Assembly: GCA_022925895.1 (NCBI GenBank)
Contig: JAKSYS010000067.1
Location: 1 to 64,000, forward strand
Length of the DNA: 64,000 nucleotides
From: Fragilaria crotonensis
Lineage: Eukaryota > Bacillariophyta > Fragilariophyceae > Fragilariales > Fragilariaceae
Direction of reading: 5' to 3'
Shown here piece by piece: positions 480-62,410 of this stretch. The notes beneath the pieces were generated by a model. The model did not search any database. It saw only the letters and a program-made list of their open reading frames with translations, and was not told the origin of the DNA. Position numbers and translations under genes: made by a program. The first letter of the stretch is position 1, and each line of letters begins with the position of its first letter.

Positions 480-1499
480 GGTAGATGGTTCAGAGTTCTC
501 TGAGTGTCACGAAGTCCATGCGGATTGAAGTGGGAGCGGATGGGTATGGCTCCAGCAAAGGTTTGGAATCGAAACAGAGAGCGGAGTTGAAGTCTTCATC
601 GAAGTAGGCGTCGCGGGTTATGATGAGGCTTTGGGTTGGTCTAGTAGATTAACCAGCCTGCAGAGTTGTCGGGAAATCCAAGGAAAATTCCGCGGGATGC
701 ACGTTGGAGTTGTTGCTTGTAGGTTATAAGTTTGTTGCGGAAAGTTGGTTCGTAGCGCTTGAAGAATGTTGGACATCCGAAGACGGAAGTTGGCTAGGAA
801 GGCTTGCGTTGAAAGCTGTATTGATAGGGAGTTGTTGGGTTGCCATGTTGGTCAATAACATTCTTGGCTGGGCAGACATTGAGGATTTGAACAGCATAGG
901 CATGGGCATGATGGAAGAATGCACCTCCTAGTCTTGCATTGTTCAGAAGGATGTTGGCAGTGTTGTGGACTTCACGCCATTTGGCTTTGCAAATACCGTT
1001 CATTTCTTGATGTTCAGGTGCTGCAGCTTCAACTTTGATACCAGTGAAGTGCATTCAGAAATGAATTTGGTTGAGGTGAAAGCAGATCCAGCATCAGTGC
1101 GGATAAACGGACAGATTGGGTGCGGCCAAGGAGTTCTGTGTCAGTTAGCCATTGCTTTAGAGCAGTAATAATGGAAGCTGTGCTTTCAGTTGGGAGACCA
1201 ATCCAACCTGTTAGTTTGCCAGGTGTTGTGACAATGAACAAGTAGGCTGAAAAGTTGGTATTGGTTGTGAGACCATAGCGGAAAGGGTTGCGCATTAGGT
1301 CAAGATGAAGGCGGTGGAAAGGTTCAGTGCCTTGGCGTTGAGGAGTTTTGTTGCGGGCACGTTGGCTGATTGAAATGCGAGGCCAGGAGTTGTGATCAAC
1401 AGTAGGTGTCAAGACATGGTCATTCCATGTTTGGTGAAGGGATCCGACCATAAGATTGCGGAAATTTCGGAAAGCAAGTCGTCGGTAGATGAGTTCCAA
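480..1499 (-). pseudogene. copia-type integrase region (broken)
   Basis: Frames on the minus strand show a copia integrase: an FHRLHLDLM start of the rve core (1029-1499), then in another frame PEHQEMNGIC with the catalytic Glu (794-1054), then RASRGIFLGFPDNSAGWLIY (about 640-720), the conserved stretch after the core. The pre-integrase zinc-binding HHCC residues appear to be lost: the segment usually read as HRRLGH is YRRLAF, and both expected Cys positions are replaced near NSWPRISISQ. At least two frame changes separate these parts. The C-terminal Ser/Pro/Asn-rich linker continues to about 240, but no RT follows. Confidence 0.7.
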
Positions 1500-1882
1500 A
1501 GGTAGGGCGGTGACTGAACGGCGTTGATCGGTGTCAACAGGGGTGTAGTGTCATCAAAATGTTGTTCATCAGGTTCAGAGTCAGGGTCAGAAGGTAGGTT
1601 AGAGTTGGAGATGGTTGAGAAGGCTTGTTGTGATGAAGGGAGTTCTCTGGTCAGTATTGGCCAAGTGTATGTGGAACCATTTGGGAGTTGGATTGTTGTG
1701 GCTCTGTTCTTGATCAGGACACTGAAGTTTTGGGTGCATGATAGAGTAGTTAAGGAGAGGAGTCTGTGGCTGAGACCTTCAACATAGTAGACATCAGTGA
1801 GTCCTAGTATGGACTTGAGGCCATCATCAGTGGTGAAGTGGCATGCAGTTGTTCCTGTGGGTGGACATCTTGGTGCTGCCAT
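1409..1882 (-). pseudogene. copia protease/pre-integrase region (broken)
   Basis: The frame contains LTDVYYVEGLSHRLLSLTTL, the segment that in copia polyproteins lies between the aspartic protease and the integrase, followed by a short hydrophobic/acidic stretch. The protease DTGA-type active site is not clearly present. The neighbouring frame at 1886-2116 contains SGATAYFP and may carry the protease remnant after a frame change. It lies between the zinc knuckle (2344-2385) and the integrase, which is the expected position. Confidence 0.6.
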
Positions 1883-2112
1883 CAGCTAAGGAGATTGGAA
1901 CACTGCAGGGTTCGACATCGTGGAGGTCGCTGAAGAGTGGAGTGTAGTGGCTGGTAGCACCACTGTCAGGTAGCCAGTTTTCAAGATGTGGGGACCAAAT
2001 CTTTGGTATGGTGATTGGGGATCATCTGGAAAGTATGCTGTGGCTCCAGAGTTGGGAGGAGAATGATTGGCAGATGGTAGATAATCTCTGTCAAGGAGAG
2101 GTTGGTTGATGG

Positions 2113-2883
2113 TCATCTGAGGTAGGTCAGGATTGGGCCAAGGGATGTTGGATGGGTGACCATCAGTGTTGTCAAAAGATGAGGCTGAAAAGGCTTGGTG
2201 GTGGTATCTTGATTGGTCTGGTGAGTTTTGGCCAGAGTCAGTGATGAAGTAGGCGCGTTGTTGGTTGCGGGAGCAGCGTTTTCATTGTTGGATGGTCTTT
2301 GAGGGTTGGTGGAGCGATTGTTTTGGTTGGATCTGTGGTTAGTGCAGTTGCGCGCATAGTGGCCGAGGCGTCCGCAGTTATTGCAGACGATTGTAGCGGC
2401 ATTGGAAGGGTTTGCGGATGGTTGTTGATGGATCCGTTGGGAGATGGACGTTGATTGGGGCTCGATGTCGGTCGGAAAGGTGGTCGATTGTTTCGTTGAG
2501 GCTGGTTGGATGGCCGCGGGAGGGTGGTGGTGGACGACGTTGATTCGAGTTGTTGAATGGTGGTCGCGAAGGATTTGTAGGAGGTCGGAACGGGCGCGAA
2601 TGGTTTTGCGGTGGTCGCGGTGGTTGGTTGCGGTTTTGATTGTTGCTGCTGGGATTGGAATAAGGTCGAAGGATGGAACTGAAAGCTTGTTGTTGTCTTT
2701 GTGTGAAAACACGTTGGGTAGTTTGGTTGTGGCGCGGTTGAAAATGGTGGGATTGGTGACCACGGGCAGCGTTGGCGTGTTGGTTGTAGTTGCGGTGGTT
2801 TTGGGATGGAGTGTGAGGCCACGGGATTCGTCAATGTTCAGGAGATGGCTTTCGAGTTCGGCGAATGGTGGCAGAGTCGTCAT
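2113..2883 (-). pseudogene. gag-like segment with CCHC zinc knuckle
   Basis: A 256-residue frame, rich in Thr, Asn, Pro and Gln, has one retroviral-type zinc knuckle, CNNCGRLGHYARNC (C-x2-C-x4-H-x4-C, bases 2344-2385). This is the nucleocapsid signature of gag. Upstream, frames from about 3660 to 2831 (minus) read like the structural part of gag (YPPIEDLTKTL, NTFIDNLELFVTFP, TAFAFSRDC) but are broken by frame changes. The knuckle cysteines and histidine are intact even though the flanks have decayed. Confidence 0.75.
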
Positions 2884-36548: not shown

Positions 36549-38424
36549 AGTAGGTAACGGCAGAATGCCAAAACAAGTAAGCCAGCATATTGCTTCCAAT
36601 CACCAATCACGTTGTCAATTTAGTCACCTGCATTTTGTGTTCTAGTGCTTGCACCGTATGCAGCTTCATCATATCATTGATTGTGCACCATACTTAGTGT
36701 GTCATTTCTTTTATCATGGGAGGACAGAAGTTTACAAACAAAAAGCAGTGATTTTGAAAAATATCTTAGGACGCTTGAAGTAGGAAGGAGAAGCATAAGA
36801 ATGATGCAGCAAATGATGGAAGGAATGGAGCTTCAACATTTGCAAAGAGTTTCCTCAGGAGAACACAATTGAGGTATTAGGAAGCTTGGAATGTATCAAC
36901 TTTCAGTTCACAAGGTTGAAAGAATTCTTGATGACAAAAACAAAATTTTATCACATCCAAGTGCACTTCACTCAACTTTGGGAATGCATTGAAACGACAT
37001 GGTTTGAGCTGCAAAAATTTCTAGGATACAGCAATGCAACATATCAGATAGTGCCAGGAAGGAAGTATTCATCCTTTTGAATCAGTTTGGGGTTCTGTTG
37101 CATCCAATATACATTTCCCCTATCTTTCACTCACCACCAATCTACTACTTTATAGCTAGTGTCATATCTATGTTTTGCTCACTCTAGTTAGCTTGTAACC
37201 TACAGAGAACATCACTCCAATTACTATTATTCTTTCTTTACTATCAACAAGAACCCAATAAATGCTTTGAAAGCAATTTGCAACATAGTAATCCATTCAA
37301 TTCACCACTCCTCGCATACAGTACCTTTTCTGACCTGGTCTGATCTCTTCCGCCAACTCTTAAAGCCTTGGTGACTCTAATATCAGGTCCTCATCACCAT
37401 CCCCGGAGGATGGAAGCATGCCACCAGTGGCTGCAGCATGCTAATGAAAGTCACTCCTCTGGATGGCAGGTTGACTTTCAAATCACATCGGCAAGTGGTC
37501 ACCAGGCATTGGCTGCTGTTATCCTCATGGCTGCCCTGTGTTGTGCTGCATTGTTTTTTTCTGGATGGTGGCCTGCTGGCGACTTATGCCAGTGACTGGT
37601 ATGGCAGGTTCACTTTGATGTCATCATGAATTGATTCAGAACAAACATCAATGAAGTCCACACTGTTGTTGTAAGAATATGATTGATGGTCTTGGTGAAA
37701 GATCGAGGTCGGCGATTAACCCAATAGTTAGGTTCTATCTTTAATCTATGATACTACTACCTAGTACTTGTTGATTCCTGCAGCTACAAATCATCCGATT
37801 TTGTTTACCTTCATCCGGGGGTATACATTTGGGCCCTGGCGGTCTGAAAACGGTGACAACCCAATAATTATGTTTGTTTCGTTTACCTTGATCCCCAATT
37901 GCACAGGTGTAATTTGATTTCTTTTTTTGCGCCTAATATTTGTCCAAAATTGGAAGTATCTTTCCCGCCTGCGCCATTCATGTTCAGTTCTTGTAGCATT
38001 TTGTTAACAGGCAGCAGCACTGCAACATGTCACAGCCAACAATCATGGTACACCAAGAATACGGTATGATTTGTCACATTTTTCTATAAAACCTTGGTCA
38101 TATTGCACTATCAAGGCACACTTTCCCCAAGGATGTCAAGATCATCAACATGCCAATCTAAGAAAACACCAAAAAGACTAAAAACACCAGAACGCCTCAA
38201 TGATGCTTTTGCTCTGGTTGTGGCAAAGGCGCAAGTCAAGTGGCATGTCCCGTCACCATCTTCCCAGCTCTCCATCAACAGCTCATAGCATCAAAATTCC
38301 TCATTGCCAGCATCTCACAAACTATCCAAGTGCATCATCAGAAATGTCAAAGCTGTTGCTGTAAACCCCTGCATTGACAGTGGTTTTCCCAATGCTGACT
38401 TTGCTTGATAATGACAATCTGCAT
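36549..38424. other. left flank of the large transposon, probable transposon debris
   Basis: No intact gene. Plus-strand frames such as 36681-36872 (LRTLEVGRRSIRMMQQMMEG), 36886-37080 and 38094-38288 look like pieces of broken coding sequence. By position this may be the other half of the decayed element seen at 50370-52700, split by the insertion at 38425, but I could not match the two halves. Confidence 0.35.
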
Positions 38425-38440
38425 CTAAGGGTGCCAAAAC
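38425..38440 (+). repeat. left terminal inverted repeat of the 11.9-kb element
   Basis: Sixteen bases exactly complementary to 50278-50293; the next bases (TAAGT versus CAAGT on the other arm) extend the match with mismatches. Preceded by AT at 38423-38424. Confidence 0.8.
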
Positions 38441-38490
38441 TAAGTACCATAGTTGATACAAGAATTTTTTATCATATTTATTGGAAAAAT

Positions 38491-38635
38491 TTCAGGATTC
38501 CCATATTTAGTTCAGGATTCCTGAAGTTTTTTTCTGGTTTATTTATTTAGTTCAGGATTCCGACATTTGCTGTTTCCTCATTTTTATGAAGAATTTTTTT
38601 TGCTCCTGAACTACTGCAGTATTATTCCTGAGCTT
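38491..38635 (+). repeat. left subterminal repeat cluster
   Basis: TTCAGGATTC occurs at 38491, 38511 and 38551, with inverse copies TTCCTGAA (38518) and CTCCTGAAC (38603). The same TTCAGGA core is repeated near the right end. Such clusters bind transposase or accessory proteins in EnSpm elements; binding here is inference. Confidence 0.7.
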
Positions 38636-38639
38636 TTTT

Positions 38640-39545
38640 CTTCATTATTTCGATGCACATAAAACACCGAGTACTGTACGTGTTTTGTACGAAATACTGG
38701 AGTAGCATGGTGTATCGTGGGTGGACTATTGGTTGTGCCGTACAGTGTACAGTATACAGCGGTTTTTACAGTGCTGTCAGCTGGGATACTACCGTCGTAC
38801 TAGCGCAATGGTTCGTTGTTGGTTATACGCTGTACATTGTACGTTGTACAAGTAGCTATGGGCGTGTCTGGTGCATGGTGCATGGTGTTCGGTGCCTGCT
38901 ACAGTACGTTTAGTATGGTGCGGTGGTGTACAGTATGGTAGCTACGGCGTGGTCTGTGTGTATGGTAGTGTGGTACTGTGTACGGTACTTTCATTACTAT
39001 AGCGCTGTGTTTTGTGTACTACGGTATGGTGGTAGCGTATAATTTTTAGTACAGTATTGTATCATGCGAGTACTCCTATGACACTATGCTACGTACTACG
39101 TGATCTTGTGTTTTCAACAACAAACCGTAGAATTGTAGGCGATAGTATGTACTGATTAATTCTTTGGCACCAATACCAGTGCATGCTGTATATTTCTACA
39201 AGGAATTAATTCTTTTTCAGCCACAGTATTGTCTTTAGTAGAATCGTACGTGATTTTTTTTGCGGGAAGTGTCACATCTCACACTTCGTTCGTTGAGCAC
39301 TCCACCACTTGGTGTCATGCCCGACACCACATTGATGCTCCATTATTTGGCATCTTCGCTCCTTCTTCGTCCTTTCCCACCCACAAGACATTGCAGTCTT
39401 AAGTGGTAAGACTGCAAATGTGCTTTTTTTTCGTGTTGATTGTTGTGTTGATTGAATGTTTCCATCATGGTGATGGTCGAATGAGTTTTGAGGTACTCCC
39501 GTTGTGCCAGTACCGTTGTCTACGTACGGTGCTCAGGGTGCAGTC
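38640..39545. other. left arm of the transposon, non-coding
   Basis: Between the subterminal cluster and the tandem repeats, the sequence is GTAC-rich (38650-39080) and then contains the unit ACTTGGTGTCATGCCC (near 39307), which is repeated at about 39919. No gene is supported. Confidence 0.5.
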
Positions 39546-39917
39546 AAGTACTGGGACGAGTTCGCACGACAGTACCTTGGAGGTTACGGTGATACACTAC
39601 GTCGCGCCTGTACAGTCGTCTACCTACCGTACTTAGGGTGCTGCCAAGTACTGGGAGTACGACAGTACCTTGGAGGCTACGGTAATACACTACGTCGCGC
39701 CTGTACCGTGGTCTACGTACCGTACTTATGGTACTGCCAAGTACTGGGAATACGACAGTACCTTGGAGGCTACGGTACAACACTACCTTGTGCATGTACT
39801 GTTGTCTACGTACTGTACTCATGTTGCTATCAAGTACTGGGAGTATGACAGTACCTTGGTGGACGCTACGGTTTATTACAATACTACCTTGTGCCTGCTG
39901 TACGGTTGTCGATGTCA
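39546..39917 (+). repeat. tandem repeat, ~93-100 bp units, four copies
   Basis: Units start at 39546, 39646, 39739 and 39832 with AAGTACTGGG, followed by GACAGTACCTTGGAGG and GTCTACGTACCGTACT-like blocks. A fifth, isolated copy starts at 40177. The surrounding ~250 bp (about 39300-39545) is also repeated, more divergently, at about 39913-40176, so the arm has a higher-order duplication. Open frames through the repeats (for example 39504-39848) are consequences of the repeat. Confidence 0.8.
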
Positions 39918-40177
39918 CAACTTGGTGTCATGCCCAACACCGCATTGAATGTTTCATTCTGTGCTTGTCCCCTTTGCCCTTTGCTTCTTCTTCCTTTCCA
40001 CTAACAAGGGCACTTAACTGTCGTTCTTGTTCGTGAGTTTTTGATTGTTTTGTCCTATCAACACAAGAATGTTGTGTTGAATCGTCGTTTCCATCATTGT
40101 GAGCAACTGATTGATTTGTTGAGGTACTCCTGTTGTGCCTGTACCATTGTCTACGTACTGTACTCATGGTACTGTCA

Positions 40178-40613
40178 AGTACTGGGACGAGTTCGCACCA
40201 CGACAGTACCTTGGAGGCTTCCGTACAACATTGTGCTGGTACTGTACTCCAGTCTTTCTTGTTGACGTTGTGTCATTGCACATGATTGTATTTTCCAGCT
40301 TTCAATCTCACATCCTCCTCTTCTTCTCCTTTCATAATTAGGATCCTTGTCGACAAGTGTTGTGCTTCTCATTTTGTTGTTAATTGAGGGAATAAGTACT
40401 TCGTCTTGTGTGCGTGCTTCGATTGAGTTTGTAAGGCAATCTGTCATCTAGAATCCAATATTCGGTCATCTGCGAGAGATTCTCATTGATTTGAGTGAAT
40501 CAAACCAGATTGATCTACCGGTATTGGTTCTTTTTGTCAGTTGTCTGTTCGCATGCTCAAGAGTTGTATACACGCACACCAGTTGGAGGATTATTCATAT
40601 TTCAACCAACAAA
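40178..40613. other. spacer with isolated repeat copy, upstream of GNAT-ULP1 gene
   Basis: It holds the fifth copy of the tandem unit (to about 40260) and the presumed promoter of the gene starting near 40614. No coding sequence was recognised. Confidence 0.4.
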
Positions 40614-43600
40614 ATGGCAGAGGTTCCATCACTGTCCCCTGTCTCGTCAGCAAGGAGGAGTCCCTATGGATAAGGCGTACCTGTTCCGTGATGGTATGGA
40701 TGAATTCACACCACCTCCAGGAACAAAGGTCAATAAACAATTCAGATCGCAAGTTCGAGTCTTTTATCATCACCCGCTCGTGCTGTTTCAGAGTTTCCAC
40801 TACACATGTTCAGCTCTTGGTTTCAAGACCTCCCGTTGTCCAAGATTATGACTCAGAACGAAAGAGAGGACTCCAATGAAATTTGGCAATTCAAGGTAGT
40901 TACGTTGTACCCCACACGTGTCCAAACAAACAAAGCTGAGGCGACAAGGTTTAAGTGGGCGACAGAAGCTGCAAGGCAATTCTACAGCACATCATTCAAT
41001 TCTACAGAAGCTGATTTGAGCTCTATCGATCGTGCTGTGAATTCTGATCCATCAATAATGATTGTGGGGCGTCCTCTTGGAAAAGAAGATGACCCCTTCA
41101 AGAAATCTGTCATAGGGTGCCAAGACTCTGTTGTTATTGCATGCATTACATTTCGAAGTGGAATTGGAGATGAAGTTGGTGCGTCGTTGGTGCTTTGGCT
41201 GTTGATTGCAGAATCTGAATCACGGAAGCCATCCGGTCTTACATCCTGGAGACGGCAAGGGTTTGGACGTCTGATGTTAGTAATGCTCATCAAGCATTCA
41301 ACTTTTTTATTATTGTCTCACCGTGAGCTGTCACAATGTCAGGAGAGCCTACATGGTGTGGACATCTACTTGCAGTGTCCCCATGACGAGCCAAAGGAAT
41401 TCTACCAAGCCTGTGGGTTCCGTCAAATCAATCTCCAAGACACAACTGGCATTGAGTTTCTTCCCAAGACAATTGCCGACACCTTAATGGACGAGACCAC
41501 AGGTGGATTTGCATGGATTGTACCAGAGTCTGAGGAGCACTGCATTATCCCTCTGATGAAACTTTCTTCCGGTTCCCTTTTGAACAGTGCTGCTAACAGT
41601 GCTGCTGTCGAGGTTGTTGAAAGCAACAGTGATGTGATCAGTGCAACAAGAAATGATGGTTCCCCGCGTGCTGTTGTTGAGTCAGAGGAAGAAAGCAAGA
41701 TCAATATAGTCGCAAAATCGAGTGGTGGTTCCCCTTCCCTCGTGAGCAGTGATGTTTTGGAGATTGTGCAGAGCAACAATGAGACAGTCAGTGCACGGAA
41801 TGATGGTAGCAACACCAGAAAAACATTTGTATGGTGCCAATACCCTTCATCAACAATCGATCTCCAAGATGATGTTGCAAGTGGAGCATTGCTGACAAAT
41901 GCAGATCTGGAAGAGGCATTTACCGGTCTGGACTATTTGAACAACCTTCTTCCACCACCATTTGGTGACCTGGTTCTGCCTGACCAGTTGCGTGGTTTTG
42001 GAGAAATGGGATCACAGGAAAGGCTTGATCATAGCAAAAGTGGTGGGAAAACTTGGATGGCCACCCGTGAGCTGCAAATGATGACTTCACTCCTCATGAG
42101 GGATGGCAGGTATCACACATCAGTTGCAATCCTGTCTTTTGACGACATGCAGGTAATTCAAGGTTGCTTTGCACGTCTTCAACGTCATCTATCTGCAAAG
42201 AAGTACGAAAAACGACTTGATGGTAGCCAATGGAGCCGATCATGCAGAATGTCTTGCCCTTGTGAAAAAAAGGTATGGAAGTTCTAAGGAAGAACTTTAC
42301 CAGAAGTATGATGACCAAATGAATCGTGTTGTGAAGGAAGTCCTGTTGTTCTATCCAGGGCTTCTGCAGAAAAGGTTGATTGTGTTTCCTACGAATCTCA
42401 GCAACGATCATTGGGGGGCAACATTTGTTTTCAATGCTGGAGACGTTGTGGCTGCCACGGATGATGTATCATGCCTCCGGACATGTTTTTTTTCGCTATT
42501 GCAGTCTTCATCCCTCCGGCACGAGAAAAATTCCAAACAATGTCGGTGTTGTCTGGTTCCTGAACCTTGCCTTCAGTTACCAGGAGCAAAGGAAAAACAG
42601 TGCAAATGATAGCAGCACTCCAAACAAGATGAAGTGGCTCAGTCCGTTCGGACGAACCTTTTTTGGGCAAATGAAGGGCACCAATACATTCCCTGCATTG
42701 AGGGTGTTGGATAATGATGTTCTTCCCTGCAAGAAGATGGCCATAGCTGTGGGATTGGGATTATAGCTGCAATTGCAATAATTCTCCGAGATATCATTGG
42801 GACTCAAGATGGAGTTGCAGCGTACAACGAAATGTTTAGACGCGATCGCATGGAAATCCAGATGTCAACTGATGTGAAATCGAAGGAGCACATTTGCTGT
42901 TTTCCACAGGAATATTCACAAAACTGTTTAAAAGGGATGATTCGGCTTCCATTTCCTACTTGCATGCGATGAAAGCACAGTGGTTTTTGCTGTTTGATCG
43001 CATTGCAGAATTTCAACACGTCACAGTCCCAAAACGTCAGAATTCAAATCATTTGATGGATCCCTGTTACGGAAGTCTGAAGTTGGAACTTCAGACTTTC
43101 ACGTGGCCCTGGGTGCCAGTACCATCCAATGCCACAGAGGACGACAGTGTTACGTTGGAGGATGTTTCTTCCAGGGAGGATGTTTTGCCAAATGCCAATG
43201 AACGGAGTTTGCCATCAGAGGAGGATGTTGCCGATTTCAAACCATCTGGATCTGCTGATGGACCTGAACAACAGGAAGAAGATATTGATCTCAACGAAGC
43301 CTGGTGGAATGATCCTGCTAAGCTTCCCCGAGCAAGCAGGGTATGGAAAGGTGGGCCTCCTCGTACGTATGGTTATGGAGACATTCATGTACCTGATGAA
43401 TGCCCGAAATTACCTTTCGGAGAAAGTAGGTACAAAACATTGGTATCAGACAATGAAGTTGAGAAATTTAGAAAAAAGTGGCGAAAGAAAGGAGATGACG
43501 GTGAAGATCGACCAGTGCTTCTTAGGGATGAAGCAGCAATGAACAAATTCGTGGAGGACAGATTTTTGTACTGGGGTTGGAGCTCTACCAAAGATCACAT

Positions 43601-44005
43601 GAAGAATGTGGAAAGAAGCGGGCCGAGATGCAAAGAAAAATTGATGGATGTAAGAAGAAAAAGACAAAGGATGATTACAGAGAGCAGTACACGAAAGAAA
43701 TAAAGTTTATGAAGAAGGAAAGGAAGAAATTCAAAGGGCATTTGAATTGGAATGGACATTTGGCACTGAGGCCATGGTGCATGGCCTCAAGTACAACCCA
43801 CGTGAAGATACCTTTGTTGCACTTTTGGTTTACAATGTTAAGACAAAAGAAGGAAAGTTGGAAAGAAGGAAGAAAAAATTGCTGTTTCCAAAGACTGGAT
43901 CAAGGATGCCGATTATGCAAAAGGGTAATCCAACATGTCATTAACGTTGGAAACACGGATGGATTTGTACCTGTTCCTGAAGGAAACCATCCTCATTCAT
44001 ACTAA
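40614..44005 (+). CDS. transposon-borne GNAT acetyltransferase-ULP1 (C48) protease fusion
   Basis: The main frame 40806-42287 (493 aa) is joined by homology-free reading across several frame changes to frames ending at 44005. The start may be ATG 40614 or 40848. Residues ~20-240: GNAT-like fold with SWRRQGFGRLMLVML (acetyl-CoA loop R/Q-x-x-G-x-G) and EFYQACGFRQIN (the typical end of GNAT domains). After a Ser/Val-rich linker comes the protease: DLVLPDQLRGFGEM, the catalytic His in NLSNDHWGATFVFN (about 42398-42437), and QEDGHSCGIGI with oxyanion Gln and nucleophile Cys (about 42733-42765). A charged C-terminal part follows (EAWWNDPAKLPRASRVWKGG; ending NTDGFVPVPEGNHPHSY). Frame changes or short introns occur near 42170, 42470, 42735, 43600, 43750 and 43900. 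ULP1 genes riding on transposons are known from plants; the GNAT fusion is the unusual part. Confidence 0.65.
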
Positions 44006-44107
44006 AAGGTACATAAGCTGCGATACGTTCCCCACAGACACAATGGGTGTTTGATCCTCAGTCGAAAAGGTCCTTAAGAGCAACAGTGACTCACCAGGGG
44101 TAAACAT

Positions 44108-44932
44108 ATGAAGCAGATACAGGCCCCTGGTTACTGGGAGGTCATCTTTCATGGAGAAACACAGCCCATTCGAACTGATGAAGACTTTGTGAAACAATTT
44201 AAGACAGGATTCTTGGAGGAGGTCAAGCGTATGAGGTGTGGATTTGTTGACATACCAGTGGGCGATTTCAAAGAATCACATTTGCATGAATATCCCAAGC
44301 TGCAGGTTCCTGAAGCACCCCAGGTCCACTTTGTACAATCCGAAGGTGAAGATCTTTGTGTTTCAAAGTCATTGGCCAGTGCTTTATATGCAATTGGATT
44401 TGATAATGCTGCCAAATCCATTAACCATTTTGGTGAAAGTCACCTAAGAGGAGGTACTGTTGATGCCATTCGAAAGGTGGGACAGTTTGCTGAAACTCAG
44501 CTGCCTACATGGATCACCCGACAAGTTCTGAAGAGACCACACATGTTTGATTGGCAACTCCTTCAAGAACAAATGAAGGACACAATGGTATTGGCTGTGC
44601 TCAATGAATCCGATGGAAATGGTTCACATGCAGTTACCATTCACAGTGGGTATGTGTATGATGCAAATGAAGTGGTTGCAATTCCTCTCTGCAAGGAGGC
44701 CTTGGATTATTGCTGCTCAACCTCAACTGTGAAGAATGAGTTTGTGAGCTTTCGGAAGGCAACTCTCTTTTTTTATGATGGCCCAGACATCAACAGGAAG
44801 GCAAGTTTTACTCTTTGGGTAGATTCAAACAAGCGAAAGCGAGCCGATGGTGATGGTCCAAAGATTGTGAGGGCTCGGACAGACGATGGCAACATGTTTC
44901 CTTTAGGTACTTTGATGCAACAAGCTAGCTAA
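44108..44932 (+). CDS. transposon-borne possible papain-fold cysteine peptidase
   Basis: 274 residues, frame intact. ATG at 44108, though coding-like sequence just upstream (43990-44100) hints at an earlier exon. A candidate nucleophile lies in GEDLCVSKSLASALYAIGF, and a candidate His plus Asp/Asn in GSHAVTIHSGYVYDANEVV, the order and spacing seen in papain-fold enzymes. C-terminal Lys/Arg cluster SNKRKRADGDGPK looks like a nuclear localisation signal. I cannot name the family; OTU-like or C39-like folds are alternatives. It follows the GNAT-ULP1 gene by about 100 bases on the same strand and faces the transposase. Confidence 0.55.
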   Translation: MKQIQAPGYWEVIFHGETQPIRTDEDFVKQFKTGFLEEVKRMRCGFVDIPVGDFKESHLHEYPKLQVPEAPQVHFVQSEGEDLCVSKSLASALYAIGFDNAAKSINHFGESHLRGGTVDAIRKVGQFAETQLPTWITRQVLKRPHMFDWQLLQEQMKDTMVLAVLNESDGNGSHAVTIHSGYVYDANEVVAIPLCKEALDYCCSTSTVKNEFVSFRKATLFFYDGPDINRKASFTLWVDSNKRKRADGDGPKIVRARTDDGNMFPLGTLMQQAS

Positions 44933-45342
44933 GCGAATTTGGATGCCCACTCTGTATATGGTTTTGTCTCAAGAACTGTGGAACTGTTGTGTGAGATGGA
45001 TATAACAAAACAAGGGGCCACGACAGTGTTTCCAGAGACAAGGTGGTATGTTGGAGACCACTTCCACCCTCAACAGTGTTGACTCGTGTTCTTTAATTTC
45101 TTCTGTTGTTGATTGAACAACCAGTTGGTATCTCTCGTCCGGATCCTGGGTGAGTCAACAACAACTACAAGAGCCAAACGACAGGAAACTTCCCATGTTC
45201 CCCAAAGTCAATTATCATCCAGTCATGTATGGGACCATCGGACTGATAGCAGGGATGACATCGAAAGGTGTGGACATCTCGTTTGTATTCAGTACAAAAT
45301 GTTATTGAGTCGGATTCCTTAAAGGAATCAAAAGAAACTCAA
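44933..45342. other. convergent spacer inside the transposon
   Basis: 410 bases lie between the 3' ends of the peptidase-like gene (plus) and the transposase (minus). No supported coding sequence. Confidence 0.5.
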
Positions 45343-47877
45343 TCAACTCCAGGGAAGAGCAAGTAAATCACGGTGAGTTCTGGTGTCCCATTCAATTTTG
45401 TACTGAATTTGTTTACTCGATTTGAATCGATAAACACAGCCAAATGTTGCTTGTCCGGTGCTCTGAAAGATTCCATTCCTTGTTGTTTCATCATCATGGT
45501 GGCTGTCGGGTACATCAGCATCACCATCTGGTTGCTCCCATATGCGCGTGTGTATGGTGTCGATCATGAAGGAGTACATTAAACGTTGGGCTGCCTGAAG
45601 TTCATATGCAGAACCCTCAATTCGCTTCTGTGCCCGTCTCCCAGGGTGCTTTGCAGCAGGAATTAGAAGTGATTCTGGACGCTGTGCACAAAAGTTCACT
45701 GGAGAGCCAAACCGAGACATATCATCCACAATGTGTAACAACTCATGGAATTTCGGAAACTTCCATGCATCCTCGGCATTGCTTTTCTGTCCTTCCTTCC
45801 TTATGATGGTTCCCTTTTTCTTACCCTTTTTCTTGTCATCCTCCTTTCCCTCAACTTTCAAGGGAATGGACTGTTTGCACATATCCATGAAATTGCGAAT
45901 GGAATCCTGATGTTTCTTCATTTCATTTGCAACATGTGCTGGATTTGTAGTCTCCCAGTAATGACTCTGGTTTAGCCAAGCATCGAAACAAAGGAGAGAT
46001 TCAAGTACTTCAAGGACCTCAGGAACCTTCTTAGTTGTTCTTTTCTCAAGACATGTTTGGATCATTTGCCATCCTGCTTCATATTGGAAGAGGATGACAA
46101 ACAAAAAAACGAGGCCAACGCGTTCTGATGCAGTTATCTTTGTCAAATTTGTTACCCCATTGCTGAAATCTGTTGATGGATACTCCTTTCGGTAGGTTTG
46201 GCGATGAGACTTGTGAAATGCTATTGCAAGGTCATCAAAGGCAGCCTTCTTGGATGCTGGAAGACTGTCCAATATAAGTTTTGTTACTTTCTCGATGACA
46301 CCTTTCCGAAATGCATGCATTGTCTCCACAGGAGTGGCCCCAAAGATTCCACGCTCAGGGTCAGCAAAGGCAATGTGTTCAAATGCATTTTCAAGTTTAT
46401 GTTGAGACCATCGTTTCCTGAGATCATCATCATTACTCCTGGCAATGAAACCCATATCCGAGGCTACCAGGTATTTGCAATGGACATCACAGTTCTTCAG
46501 ATCATCATAATTGACATCACAGCACCGATGAGGGCGTTGGATTCCACTGGTGTGAACACCATACCGACCACACAGCATATCTCCTTCTTGCATATCTTGA
46601 ATGATGAACAACACACATGTGACAATGTCGACACAGATTCTACCCTTTGGACCAATTGGCAAATGAACACCACACAGTTGTGGTGAACATTTCCGAAAGG
46701 TCTCCAATACAGCATCCAGCTCCTTATGATAGATACGAATGGCATCGCCCATACGAAGTGTCTGCTTCTGAGCTGATGAGGACTTCCTCTTTGGGAGAAA
46801 GCCATGATAGCCCCATGCCTTGATACTCCTTCTGAATTTTTCTGTAAAAATGGCTGGAGTGAACATGTAGGGTTTAAGTGAAAAGCGATCATTCCCTGTT
46901 ACAGAGGTACGATCAATCCATTGGATGATTGGAACAAACAATTGCTTCTGAGGATCTGTGATTAATCGATCATACGCCTTGCGATAGACACTCCCGGACA
47001 GTGCCTCACCCAAAACATTGCTGCCTTTCAATTTGTGGTAGGGCTTCAGGGGATCATTGATATCGATGGCAAGGTTTTCTGCAGTCATAATGCTTGGATT
47101 TTGCAGCAAACTTAGCAACTGTGAAGCGAAGTCAAAACAAATCACATCTGATGGAGAGCCATGATGTACATCCACTCTTCGTACAAAGGGAAGCAGTCTT
47201 TTCCCATTACGAACTGAGTTGATCAGGGCATCAACATTTTGGCACGCGAGAGTCCACCCACTGGGTTGTAAGAATAATTATCAGCAGATGCAGAGCGTGC
47301 CCACTCAGGACTTGACCAAAAGTGTAGTCGGGTGCATTGGCATGGTCCAGGATTTTGAGGAGAGAAACAGTCCACTTCTGATCGGTAGTATACATGAAGT
47401 TTGAACGAAATGATGGGGCTTCCACATCTTCATCAAGTGCAGAATTCGTACAGGTAAGAATGTTTGGGTCATCACTTAACATGGACAAATCATCACTTTT
47501 GTTGCAGTCCTCGATGTCCTCACAAGAAGTGCTTTCAACTTCCACACCATTGCCAGCCGGAAACTGCAGAAGGTTGTCTGTGCCATCAAAATCCATGTGG
47601 GGATCATTCACCATATGTCGCCTTAAAGGGCAGGCCTCTTGTTACTTGTGCATGTGATATTCCCATCCTCATGAAGACGGCGACGGTGTGAAGCAGAAGC
47701 CCCATGTGTTGCTGCATGGTGTGATTTCTTCACAATGAAATTATAACACCCGATGTTTCTATCAATATGCTGTGTATATGCTGCTTGATTGGAAAAGGGT
47801 TTCTTGTTGAAATTCAGGCAGAAGGGGTTTTGACAGAAGAGCAGGGGTGCCTTTGAGGAAGCAGACGAGGACAACAT
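45343..47877 (-). CDS. Plavaka/EnSpm-like transposase
   Basis: The main frame is 47175-45343 (610 aa), with N-terminal parts in frames 47614-47231 and 47877-47623. The N-terminus has a Cys/His finger-like segment (CQNPFCLN, AYTQHIDRNIGC). The core reads VPIIQWIDRTSVTGNDRFSL (the IDxT block), MFTPAIF, AWGYHGFLPK, GRICVDIVTCVLFIIQDMQE, HRCCDVNYDDL, and GIFGATPVETMHAFRKGVIE, all typical to my memory of Plavaka-type transposases related to CACTA/EnSpm. The C-terminus has AQRPESLLIPAAKHPGRRAQ. Frame changes near 47625, 47325 and 47245 are each explained by loss of 1-2 bases, two of them in A runs; the catalytic core is uninterrupted. Divergent from the accessory gene starting at 48233. Confidence 0.75.
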
Positions 47878-48232
47878 TTTGAAGAGAAGGTTTTGAAGAA
47901 AGGGTTTTGAAGAGGACGAGTGAAGTGAAAATGAGGTGTTGAAATTGACAGGACACAGATTCACTAAACAGAAGTTCGGAAAGCGTGCATTCAAATTGTA
48001 CATTTACTTTCGGTACATTTTTGGTGTATGTAAAGAATGAAGGGGTGTGGTATGAATTCAAAATTTGAAAACCCTGCATGAATGTGTAGAACCTACATAC
48101 CAACTCGGTACTTGGTATGAAATTCAAATGGTGGCAAAAAAGACTATCCCACAAACAGGATTTTCAGTGTTCAAAATTTGGCGCACAATCGGAAAGTTTT
48201 TCACACAACAAGGAAGCACCACAAATACAACC
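47878..48232. promoter_or_regulatory. divergent promoter of transposase and accessory gene
   Basis: 355 bases lie between the two divergent transposon genes. AT-rich; no defined site seen. Minus-strand frames continue upstream of 47877, so a longer transposase N-terminus cannot be excluded. Confidence 0.4.
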
Positions 48233-49735
48233 ATGGCATCAATGGCACACCAAACAGCAGCAGGCATGACTGCCTTAAAGCCCAGCTCTAGGAAACAAAG
48301 GAGAGACTTCATAAGAGGCGTGAACGAGTGACCACAGATCCCAATGATCTGATTCAAAGTGACAACGAGGAGGAGGAGGAGGAAGAAGTGCCACGGAAAA
48401 TGGATGCAAAACTAGGACAGAAGCATGCATACGAAATCCACCATCCCTACCTTCAACTATTAAAGTCGGGAAATCAAGTGACAGCCAACTAACATCATCG
48501 GTTCCAGGGCTAAGCAGCATAGTGGACATGAGCATGACGGAAAATACAGAAGAGAATCAAATCAGTGTGATCAAGACTTGCATCAAAAACACGTGTTCTC
48601 TATTTGGAAGTTCTATCAAAAGACTATCATTCTCATTTCAGTGAAGATGAGAAAACACTTTGTGGCTTTATCATGAAGCACACAAACATTCGAGGAACCG
48701 AAAACTGGTGGCTTGGGATGCGGAGAATAGTTGTAAAACACACACTGATCTTCGAACAATGCAATAAAAACATGCAAACGAAATTCAAAGGTGAGGAATT
48801 GAAGTGAGTGTACTTTGCCAAAGCCCGAGCATACTCACACTCACTTGCATTCAACATCAAACACCTTGCATCCAGAGGATTCACTTCCAATTTAGGAACG
48901 TATGAACACAGCCTATACAGTGGAAGCGAGGAAGAAACCAGTTACCTCCTCAAGATGAGGGATAATATCTGCTACTATGCCCAAATCATAGACACCTATG
49001 CCCCATGCATTGTCGGCAGCAGCAAGTGGAATAACACTATCAACATGGAGAACCACTGTGCAACAACTGACAGAAAAGTATGGAGCAAGAAAATCCTGTC
49101 CATAAGTGATGAAGCATTCATTTTGCTGTGCCTGATCAACTATGGGAAGAGGTGGTTCGCGGAATTAGTTAAGACAGAGAAAATGGTAAGTTTATCCGAA
49201 TGGTTTGTCACAGAACAAACAACAAGAAACTGACTTGTTTTGTTATCACTTGTTGGAAACAGCGAATTGGTACATGGACTGATGAGGACAACAACAACCT
49301 ACCCGTAAGTTACACTATGATACTAAATGAAATGAAAAAACCACATCCTAACTTCTGACCAATCTTTGCAATACCATGTTCGGCAGCCACCACTTTACAC
49401 ATTCTCCAGGAACAAGGGTGCTCATGATAATGGGGGAGGCTGTGGTTGGTCACAGGTGGGAATGAGGAAATACGATGAATTATACATGGCCATCAAGAAT
49501 GATAGAAAGAAATCAACCACCCCAACATTCAACCAGGAACTACTTAAAATGTTTCTGTCCAGAAGGAAAAAGGAGTCTGGCCGGGGTCAGGAAACAATTT
49601 GATGACAAGGGTAAGAAACGCCCACACAAGTGCATTGATGTATTTGACGAGGACTCTGATGAGGAGGATGATAACTACTCCAGTCATCTTGCTCCTGAAC
49701 TTGTCTACAGTGAATTGAAAGTGGAGGCAGTTTAG
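48233..49735 (+). pseudogene. transposon accessory gene, broken; possibly DNA-binding
   Basis: ATG at 48233 (CCATGGCATC). The first exon-like frame ends at 48331, but an overlapping frame continues: KRRERVTTDPNDLIQSD then a run of seven Glu. Later parts: SEDEKTLCGFIMKHTNIRG and NWWLGMRRIVVKH (48604-48807), an in-frame TGA at 48805, then ARAYSHSLAFNIKHLASRGF (48808-49190). Probable introns begin at GTAAGTTTAT (after 49190) and GTAAGTTACA (after 49303). The 3' part has CGWSQVGMRKYDELYMAIKN and an acidic tail (DVFDEDSDEEDDN). No family call; the W/K-rich segment with an acidic tail would suit a TnpA-like protein that binds the subterminal repeats, which is speculation. Confidence 0.4.
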
Positions 49736-49932
49736 AATAGATCAGACACTTAGTAATGAATAGTAGAATGGTTCATCAAAGCCACACGAATAGGCACAAT
49801 TAAAACTAATCTCCAACAAAAGTTAAAATGAGCGACAATAACATCTATTATATGAACAATGTCAGCTCAGAACTACTGAGGTGATTACTTCATACACACT
49901 ACACAGCAAACTTCTTCTTTTCGAATATCTAA

Positions 49933-50140
49933 TTCAGGAATTGAAATTCATGATCACAAATGAAGAAGTGGTATAGTTCATATATTTAGAGTCCAAGAGT
50001 TCAGGAATCCCACCCGAGTGTTAGTAAAAATGAGTCAGTGAAATTCAGGAATTGAAATTTTGGAGCTCAGGAATGCAAAGTATGAGCTCCTATGCAAGAG
50101 ATGAAAAAGTTCAGGAAACATAAATTTCAGAGTTCAGGAA
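49933..50140 (+). repeat. right subterminal repeat cluster
   Basis: TTCAGGA(A) occurs at 49933, 50000, 50044, 50110 and 50133, with a GCTCAGGAAT variant at 50065. It mirrors the left cluster at 38491-38635. Confidence 0.7.
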
Positions 50141-50277
50141 TACGAGGAAACCCGCTTCATACACATGATGTACAAGCTCTTTAGTCCTAAGTTTTTACCT
50201 ATATTTTAGGTAAAAATTATGAACAAAAAATTCTCATATCAAAGATAATTGGTTTTTCATATCCAAGAGCCGACTTG

Positions 50278-50293
50278 GTTTTGGCACCCTTAG
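50278..50293 (-). repeat. right terminal inverted repeat of the 11.9-kb element
   Basis: Exact reverse complement of 38425-38440, followed by AT at 50294-50295. Further inward, GAATTTTTT-like and CATATC-type sequence also matches the left arm. Confidence 0.8.
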
Positions 50294-50369
50294 ATGTGGT
50301 TAGTTGTTCAGTCATGCTCCTCATATACATCACGAACAATTTGGTTTAGTACTAGTAATTCCTAATGGT

Positions 50370-60308: not shown

Positions 60309-62410
60309 TTAGCCTTCAGCGTTCAATCCTTCATAGATCTGAGTGTTCTTAAATCCACCCACACCTTCCAATCCATACTTACGGCACTTATACGCCACAG
60401 CCTTCAAGCTCTTGACAAGTTCAATGTTACTGTCGATGAATGATTTCTCGTGATACCTAACCTTCCACTTCTCACAAAAAGGTTTAACCAACGATCTCGC
60501 TTCCCTGAGATTATGCCTCGGCAAACGCGGGAACAAATGGTGCTCAATTTGAAACTGCAACCCCCCGTGGACAAAGTCCAGCGAGCGAGGGCAATCCACA
60601 TTCATAGTGGTGTTGCATTGCATCTTGAACCACTCGTCCGACGTGTCGTTGTAAGCATGTCCGTGGTAGACATCCATGGTGAAGTGACTGATGCAAATCT
60701 GAACGTGCAGGAATCCAGCAAGGCCGTGCGAGAGTAACAACCAAATAGCCTTCTCGTACAGCGGGAGCGATGCCAGCAAGGCACCGACCCAAAGCAGAAA
60801 TGTAGAGAGGGTCACCAGTTCCAAGGCCTGGTAGCGCTTCGCGAACCAAGCATCGTGATGCTTCGCGGTAACAGCAAAAATCCAACCTTGAATGTAAAGG
60901 TTGAATCGGGCTACCGCCATGATTGGGTAGAAGAGGTAGTGCTGATTGCTCACTAGGAAACGAGAGAACATGTCAGGCGAAATGAATTTTCGGTGAAAGC
61001 TTGACCAGAAACCATTGTTTTCTTCATTAAAGCACCCGCCGTCCTTAAGCTTTCGTGCGTCAAAGATGTCATCTGCGATGGCAAAGAGTGGCATGTGTTG
61101 GATATCAGGATCGTGCTGAACACTATTGCACACCACGTGGTGCACGTTGTGGGAGTGTTTCCACCAACCAAGCCCGATACCCCCCAATGTGTTACCAAAC
61201 AGGATCCCAAAGAAGGTGTCGTAACCCTGAGTGTGTGAGATAGAGTTGTGACCAATGTCATGCCCAAGAAAAGCCAACTGATGCCAGAAAACAGCCTATA
61301 CCATGGAGCAAGAATGGTAAGGTATACATGTACATAGCAAGTGGGTCGCGTGATGACGAAGTTGGCACTTACCATAACAACGGCTCCTGACATTCGTCTG
61401 ACAGATGTGGTTCCGAACAGCGTCAACGAAACCGCGGAGAAAAGCAATGCTGACAACCAGAGCACCTTGATGTAGTAAAAGTAAAGATTGGTCTCGAAGA
61501 GTCCTCTTCGCAGTAAGTCTTGACGAATACGTCTGTGCTCGATGGTGAATTCATCGTCGTCCAAAGAATCAATGACATCCCCAATGTAAAAGGCAGGGAG
61601 GAGAGTGCGGTAGACAGATGCTTGATGGTAGTTGGCAAATGCATCCGTGGAATCTTTGCCGGCCATGTTCTCAAGGTTCAGCCATCCACCTGGGTGGTTA
61701 GGTACAAATTTGGTTATGTCGTAGACGTGGGATTCAATAACAACCCAGCAATCTTCCAACGTGTTGTGCTTTGCCACTTCGGCCATGGTGAAATCCTTTC
61801 GAAACGTCTTGTTAATTGACCTCGGATGATAGAACTTTGGCACGTAGACTGATTTCCCCTTTTCCTCACGCCAGATCATTGCTTGCTCTCCAACGGACGA
61901 TTTCGGATTCGATGCTTCGGATTCCGACTCTTCGCCACTGTCTTCATCGCTTGTCTCAGTAACATACGATTGCAAATGGTTAAGCTCCCTTGCAATGTCT
62001 TCAATAGTTGGAGGCGACCTTCAGTTGGGTATGGAGGGGAAGGGGTTACAGTAATGAGTATAGTGGGCACGACGGTTTCGTAACACAAGACCGACGCAAA
62101 CTCACATGAACTCTGGGGTATCCGGACCTTCATGAGCCTCGGCCCTCTCAACCCATATCATCGAGAGAAAAGCCAATACGGCGACGGGGACGTAAACAAA
62201 AGGCGAGTAAGTCCCATCAACAAAAAGGAATGATAATGCAACAACAATAATTGCAGGGTACCCAATGCGAAGCTTGGAATACGAATCCCTTGAGAGTGGA
62301 GTGTTGGATCCTTTACGAAGACGTTTGAAAGGCGAGTCCATATGCGTCGGTGGGTCCTTCACAGCAGCCCCCATTGACGAAAGTCGCTCTGGCAAAGAGC
62401 CAGATTTCAT
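60309..62410 (-). CDS. cytochrome b5-fused front-end desaturase
   Basis: Introduces a double bond near the carboxyl end of an acyl chain (delta-6 fatty acid or delta-8 sphingolipid type). Exons about 62410-62106, 62018-61373 and 61295-60309 (introns 87 and 77 bp) join in phase to 645 residues. The N-terminus is extended by ~160 residues with one or two hydrophobic segments (GYPAIIVVALSFLFVDG) and an acidic linker. The cytochrome b5 domain carries HPGGW and a second heme ligand in FANYHQA. Three histidine boxes: GHDIGH, HSHNVHH and QIEHH, the Gln-for-His in box 3 being diagnostic of front-end desaturases. HPDIQ-like and NSISHTQGYD context resembles sphingolipid delta-8 enzymes, but substrate is not proven. 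The frame is intact. Confidence 0.88.

Follow-up and report, generated by a model that had tools for sequence, protein, structure and literature searches.

The window analyzed here, a 64,000-nucleotide stretch of the Fragilaria crotonensis genome (contig JAKSYS010000067.1, positions 1 to 64,000), contains an 11,875-bp DNA transposon at 38422..50296. The element encodes a Plavaka transposase of about 985 aa (44929..47879, minus strand), a convergent plus-strand gene for a protein of about 1,430 aa that combines GNAT, ULP1-like and papain-fold domains (40666..44932), and an accessory gene of no known family (48128..49735, plus strand, start approximate) that is divergent from the transposase. 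The stop codons of the transposase and multi-domain genes overlap tail to tail at 44929-44932 (read by eye, with the C548 copy).

Boundaries, ends and copies of the element

The extent of the element was determined by comparison with other copies in the Fragilaria crotonensis genome (62.1 Mb, 881 contigs). Within the window, inverted repeats at 38425-38440 and 50278-50293 are exact over 16 bp, and the three matches obtained at up to three mismatches were equalled in none of 100 shuffles. In the genome this 16-mer occurs at 120 places (55 forward and 65 reverse, at most one mismatch) and its reversed control at none; among the places listed, the end-to-end spacing of paired 16-mers was mostly about 11.8 kb or about 6.7-8 kb. 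Copies picked as paired ends gave a sample of 27 elements: 14 large copies, each read as two overlapping stretches, 12 smaller ones and the copy in the window. Some listed end pairs, including C347, C511, C569, C599 and C658, lie outside this sample.

CAT precedes and ATG follows the 16-mer in 27/27 copies, so these bases belong to the terminal inverted repeat (TIR), which is 19 bp long, starts with CATCTA, reads CATCTAAGGGTGCCAAAAC, and occupies 38422..38440 on the plus strand and 50278..50296 on the minus strand. The two bases outside CAT/ATG differ from copy to copy, and the left pair equals the right pair in 23 of the 26 readable copies (P 4e-25; the exceptions are C55, C69 and L045), with agreement at other offsets limited to 0-4 of 26-27 copies. 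In the window this target-site duplication (TSD) is TG, at 38420..38421 and 50297..50298 (plus strand). Empty sites were sought with 26 joined flanks, each containing one copy of the two bases and with CAT/ATG left out, and the best 40 of 369 candidates were scored. Uninterrupted sites with 100% identity over the junction were recovered for six insertions (C427, C34, C108, C186, C390 and C482) and one with 98% identity for a seventh (C95b); the best 40 of 369 candidates included none for the window's own insertion. Because flank comparison and empty sites agree, the element spans 38422-50296 with a 2-bp TG duplication, and its ends and TSD, with the empty sites of other insertions, demonstrate that it was mobile in the recent past.

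The initial annotation had placed the boundaries at 38425..50293, with exact 16-bp TIRs flanked on both sides by AT. The exactness of the repeats stands, but they extend 3 bp further at each end; AT is present in 27 of 27 copies because it is invariant and not a variable duplication, the wider CAT/ATG being equally constant and thus part of the TIR. No copy ending elsewhere appeared among the 27 read, all of which have both ends alike, as befits a sample chosen as paired ends with truncated copies uncounted. The element can be called structurally complete with respect to its ends, but the reading frames of the window copy are broken in the assembly.

Subterminal clusters of TTCAGGA, also described initially, lie inside both ends, with five copies on both strands at 38491..38610 and five on the plus strand at 49933..50139. 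The two terminal 400-bp ends together contain 10 copies, compared with a mean of 0.09 and a maximum of 2 in 2,000 mononucleotide shuffles, and the clusters are kept in 27/27 elements, shorter ones included (4-5 per left end, 3-5 per right end). The right ends of two diverged families contain no such cluster, and TTCAGGA is likely a family-specific binding site. Inward of the left cluster, a non-coding stretch (approximately 38850..40347) exists in two versions that are about 70% alike in alignable pieces, while the adjoining gene sequence is 98-99% identical, a pattern that looks like module exchange between copies. The two versions, noted in the window and in copies C69, C703 and C327, have sharp borders between copies otherwise about 98% identical, and one carries 93-bp tandem repeats, located in the window at 39566-39862.

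Most large copies are closely related: 12 of 13 differ from their column majority by 2-34 substitutions over 11.9 kb, with 16-74 deletions and 6-38 insertions each, while C69 differs by 505 substitutions. Copy C548 is more diverged, at about 90-93% identity over long pieces. Four smaller copies (L039, L042, L043 and L044) derive from the common type by internal deletion and retain parts of the genes. The other eight, 6.7-6.9 kb long, make up a subfamily of their own that is 86-92% identical to the common type at shared parts and has no multi-domain gene and a transposase reduced to a remnant; five of these are 98.6-99.3% identical to L040 over the full length, and L037 and L047 are more distant. 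In each of the 12 smaller copies the multi-domain gene is missing or incomplete and some or most of the transposase is gone, while the ends and TTCAGGA clusters are retained. Two non-autonomous copies, L045 (C402) and L046 (C482), lie at nearly one place in repeated sequence, with flanks about 95% identical; L046 has a GA duplication and L045 has no matching duplication.

Genes of the element

The transposase contains a Plavaka domain match at 46291-47052 (PF18759, 40.7 bits versus a curated cut-off of 26.3), which bears out its initial assignment. The 2-bp TSD, seen in 23/26 copies and at the empty sites, falls within the 2-3 bp of Plavaka, and the termini CATCT..AGATG share four of five bases with PlavakaB. 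EnSpm/CACTA elements have CACTA..TAGTG ends and a 3-bp TSD. Of the initial description "Plavaka/EnSpm-like," the bounded Plavaka-type element holds, but CATCTA ends and a 2-bp TSD do not fit EnSpm/CACTA. The element is a cut-and-paste Plavaka-lineage transposon of the CMCT group of DDE transposons. Termini have been given as CATCA..TGATG for PlavakaB, TGT..ACA for PlavakaA and CAC..GTG for EnSpm/CACTA (PMC12730594).

The multi-domain gene is a single exon whose coordinates leave no space for introns, although its frame is broken in the window copy. From the N-terminus, it encodes a GNAT domain (approximately 40890..41564) with the motif RRQGFG, a ULP1-like (C48) domain (approximately 41826..42948), a conserved middle region without an assigned family, made of helices followed by three strands and one helix (approximately 43607..44040), and a papain-fold domain with the residues Q-C-H-D/N (44141..44783), all on the plus strand. 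The two peptidase-like domains are separated by a variable acidic linker. Three further genes had originally been annotated beside the transposase, but there are two, since the supposed GNAT-ULP1 fusion and the possible papain-fold peptidase are parts of one gene: both open reading frames (ORFs) are spanned by the single proteins P0001 and P0002. P0001 comes from a metagenome (1,428 aa; 12,015-bp contig). It matches the 832-aa GNAT-ULP1 ORF of C69 from end to end at 95% identity, and its C-terminal part is the papain domain, with 273/277 residues identical to window positions 44090-44929. The same domain order recurs in P0002 (59% identity over 99% of the query) and P0009 (33% over 54%). A literature search that left most subscription journals uncovered returned no description of this fusion protein.

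The four parts of this protein differ in how clearly they can be assigned. R/Q-x-x-G-x-G/A is the acetyl-CoA motif of GNAT proteins, and H-D/N-Q-C is the catalytic order of Ulp1/C48 peptidases. The first domain combines the GNAT motif with a GNAT fold nearest to GCN5/PCAF, and the last has a papain fold with the Q, C, H and D/N of clan CA papain-like peptidases, so the GNAT and papain folds proposed initially are retained. Assignment of the second domain to ULP1 is weak. Its H-W, N, Q and C-G are invariant in 5/5 sequences, and among genome copies the H is readable and conserved in 6/15 and N/Q/C in 11/15, the remainder being unreadable.

Codon majorities of the 12 common-type copies are free of stops, both for the transposase (985 codons) and for the multi-domain gene mapped to P0001 (1,428 codons). 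Relative to C548, the ratio of nonsynonymous to synonymous substitution rates (dN/dS) is 0.20 for the transposase and 0.39 for the multi-domain gene, although the codon mapping passes across frame breaks and leaves out codons that match poorly (about 1,340/1,428 compared), an omission that can lower dN. By part, dN/dS is 0.54 for GNAT, 0.62 for the ULP1-like domain, 0.27 for the middle region and 0.20 for papain. Selection on both genes is evident from these codon comparisons. For the accessory gene, dN/dS by part ranges from 0.17-0.68 between common copies and C548, and from 0.26-1.6 between the common type and the small subfamily; the latter range fits decay in non-autonomous copies.

Recurrence of the three genes in diverged families

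Genome-wide matches suggest that the three genes travel together. A diverged papain relative gave 113 matches, merged to 67 loci, and neighbors were tallied from 80 Plavaka-profile, 89 transposase and 144 accessory matches; these counts, including those for papain, are lower bounds, only the best candidates having been scored. A Plavaka-type match lies within 6 kb of 49/67 papain loci, convergent in 48 and on the same strand in one (C253). An accessory relative lies within 9 kb of 48/67, in only two layouts: on the same strand downstream in 23, as in the window's family, and on the opposite strand upstream in 25, in other families. Both partners are present at 39/67 loci. Counted from the window family's transposase, 42/48 loci have a papain match within 6 kb. 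The papain domain thus mostly adjoins the transposase instead of occurring apart from it. The enzymes had been called cargo, and they are indeed unusual, but because papain loci adjoin convergent transposases and accessory relatives in fixed layouts, they are better regarded as a component common to diverged families than as a casual passenger.

Two diverged families carry the same kit. The second family starts with CATCTAAGGGGGCA, and a papain match lies inside all five of its 11.6-12.4 kb pairs of ends (C214, C282, C449, C686 and C728); a sixth pair has no papain match, and three ends are unpaired. The third family (C259), of which only the right end was read, ends in ...CCTTAGATG. These two families share the terminal nine bases; compared with the window's transposase, theirs show 53% (C728) and 63% (C259) identity. 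Even where protein identity between families is about 50%, the multi-domain gene still lies next to the transposase and is oriented alike. Recurrence of the transposase, multi-domain and accessory genes in diverged families points to an ancestral three-gene kit, in which the accessory gene, given the two layouts seen, would have relocated once.

The sixth pair of second-family ends (C869:278508-285778, 7.27 kb) encloses Plavaka and accessory matches and is likely a deletion derivative. A second group of Plavaka-profile matches (e.g., C456, C797 and C8) covers only profile positions of about 39-170 and is perhaps another transposase group; C253 is the sole papain locus of the 67 with such a match inside 6 kb.

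Proposed role of the multi-domain protein

As a whole, these data are fairly probably explained by a mobile Plavaka-lineage element with a recurrent three-gene kit, whose trans-acting multi-domain protein serves in escape from silencing or in post-excision repair. Binding of the TIR and TTCAGGA repeats and movement of the element would fall to the transposase, perhaps aided by the accessory protein. The multi-domain protein would act in trans, its GCN5-like GNAT domain acetylating chromatin or nuclear proteins and its two peptidase-like domains taking off SUMO/ubiquitin-like modifiers, such that the element evades silencing or survives post-excision repair. Its retention beside the transposase in distant families makes it probable that this protein helps the transposon deal with its host. 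The initial annotation proposed that it modifies host SUMO/ubiquitin-like or chromatin proteins; judged from sequence, this may be so, and anti-silencing via such marks seems its likeliest role. A fuller version of this idea is tentative and perhaps more doubtful than not: a one-polypeptide anti-silencing machine, passed down together with the transposase in many diverged families, in which a GCN5-like acetyltransferase opens chromatin and two peptidases strip SUMO-/ubiquitin-like marks, as a counterpart of the TET/JBP enzymes of fungal Plavaka.

Several observations weigh against this interpretation. Plavaka transposases have a DDE triad with C(2)C and H(3-4)H between the second D and the last E; Cys and His are present in that region of the translated transposase, but their exact spacing was not recognized by eye, nor was the C(2)C / H(3-4)H motif clearly seen. 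In the ULP1-like region, a Peptidase_C48 match was found in 1/9 relatives at 16.4 bits, below the 20.7 cut-off (E 0.0084), a profile search of PDB returned no match, and both structure models are poor. The dN/dS values of the GNAT and ULP1-like parts rest on few changes, so recent constraint on both is not firm. Nine of the 67 papain loci have neither partner, and the same-strand neighbor at C253 belongs to the second Plavaka-profile group. Six of the 48 transposase loci have no papain neighbor, of which C108, C327 and C390 are the deletion copies L039, L042 and L044, and C286, C304 and C591 are others. The broken reading frames, and the possibility that short-read polishing inflates near identity between copies, count here as well and are taken up below.

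Alternatively, the multi-domain protein may participate directly in transposition, for example by handling the target site or repair factors, instead of in anti-silencing. Its convergent placement in 48/49 neighboring pairs is compatible with such a role, and Ulp1 and OTU domains of Ginger elements have been suggested to target repair factors while the element transposes (PMC2836005). However, the 12/27 elements without all or part of the gene carry the same ends, which argues that it is not needed in cis, though action in trans would still be possible; we regard this explanation as possible but rather unlikely. Somewhat less likely still, the product could be a polyprotein that processes either itself or the transposase into functional pieces, in the manner of viruses or self-synthesizing elements: one long protein does hold two domains resembling cysteine peptidases, their catalytic residues conserved, with a variable acidic linker between them, but self-cleavage leaves the conserved GNAT domain unexplained.

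Another reading takes the broken frames as real and the family as dead or dying in this strain. The whole multi-domain frame is open in 0/15 large copies, and even the column majority of 13 copies splits this gene into ORFs of 408, 187, 404 and 243 aa and the transposase into ORFs of 502, 219 and 295 aa. Among 12 large copies, moreover, indel cells are more often in columns common to at least two copies (549) than private (172). Yet these 721 indel cells outnumber the substitution cells (131; 58 private, 73 shared) by about 5 to 1. Two shared breaks lie at homopolymers, seven A (42265-42271) and eight T (42486-42493, both read by eye), through which the C69 ORF continues, as expected of systematic errors in MinION R9.4.1 reads; the published draft (61.85 Mb, 879 nuclear contigs) was built from such reads and polished with Illumina data (PMC9476933). 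Furthermore, metagenomic relatives with intact frames exist, a host desaturase in the window seems frame-split as well, and near-identical copies require a recent transposase source, although polishing may exaggerate that near identity. Systematic nanopore basecalling indels are therefore a more likely main cause of the breaks than decay, though some breaks may be real, and a dead or dying family is improbable. The desaturase, a fatty-acid desaturase at 60309-62020 (minus strand), appears to lie in two overlapping frames, probably owing to an assembly indel.

Simple acquisition of host gene fragments without any life-cycle role has a precedent in CACTA elements, which take up such fragments, ULP included (PMC2528002). 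It is very improbable here, given the gene's dN/dS of 0.39 and its constant orientation next to the transposase even in families with about 50% protein identity.

Comparison with known transposons

The closest described relatives of the window element appear to be the PlavakaB elements of fungi (CMCT clade), which share the Plavaka profile, CATC..GATG termini and a 2-bp TSD, and some of which likewise carry an extra chromatin- or DNA-modifying enzyme (TET/JBP) (PMC12730594). Relative to PlavakaB as described there, the window element differs in its diatom host, its GNAT/ULP1-like/papain protein and accessory gene, and a fifth terminal base of T versus A. Plant EnSpm/CACTA elements have a related transposase, and some families carry a ULP-type peptidase, but the window element has neither CACTA ends nor a 3-bp TSD, and the available portion of that report mentions no GNAT or papain domain for CACTA (PMC2528002). 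Deconjugase-type cysteine peptidase domains (Ulp1, OTU or C48) also occur on Ginger1, Mutator-like and Crypton elements, C48 peptidases being found in oomycete Cryptons (PMC3212892); these have unrelated transposases, and no GNAT fusion is mentioned in the available portions of the two reports (PMC2836005, PMC3212892). VANDAL elements offer a functional analogy only, in element-encoded anti-silencing and a fast-diverging non-coding repeat region, but their VANC protein is a sequence-specific binder (PMC10398659).

This element bears on the question of why deconjugating peptidases recur in eukaryotic DNA transposons that are unrelated to one another. It adds a diatom lineage of Plavaka type with well-defined ends, and with peptidase-like domains and a GCN5-like acetyltransferase in one position-stable protein, many near-identical copies and clear empty sites, it constitutes a testable three-gene system. 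The "hypothetical proteins" P0003, P0010, P0068, P0074 and P0082 can now be explained as transposon genes. Elsewhere in the window, ORFs at 1029-2883 (minus strand) resemble, by eye, the gag and pre-integrase region of a Copia-type retroelement.

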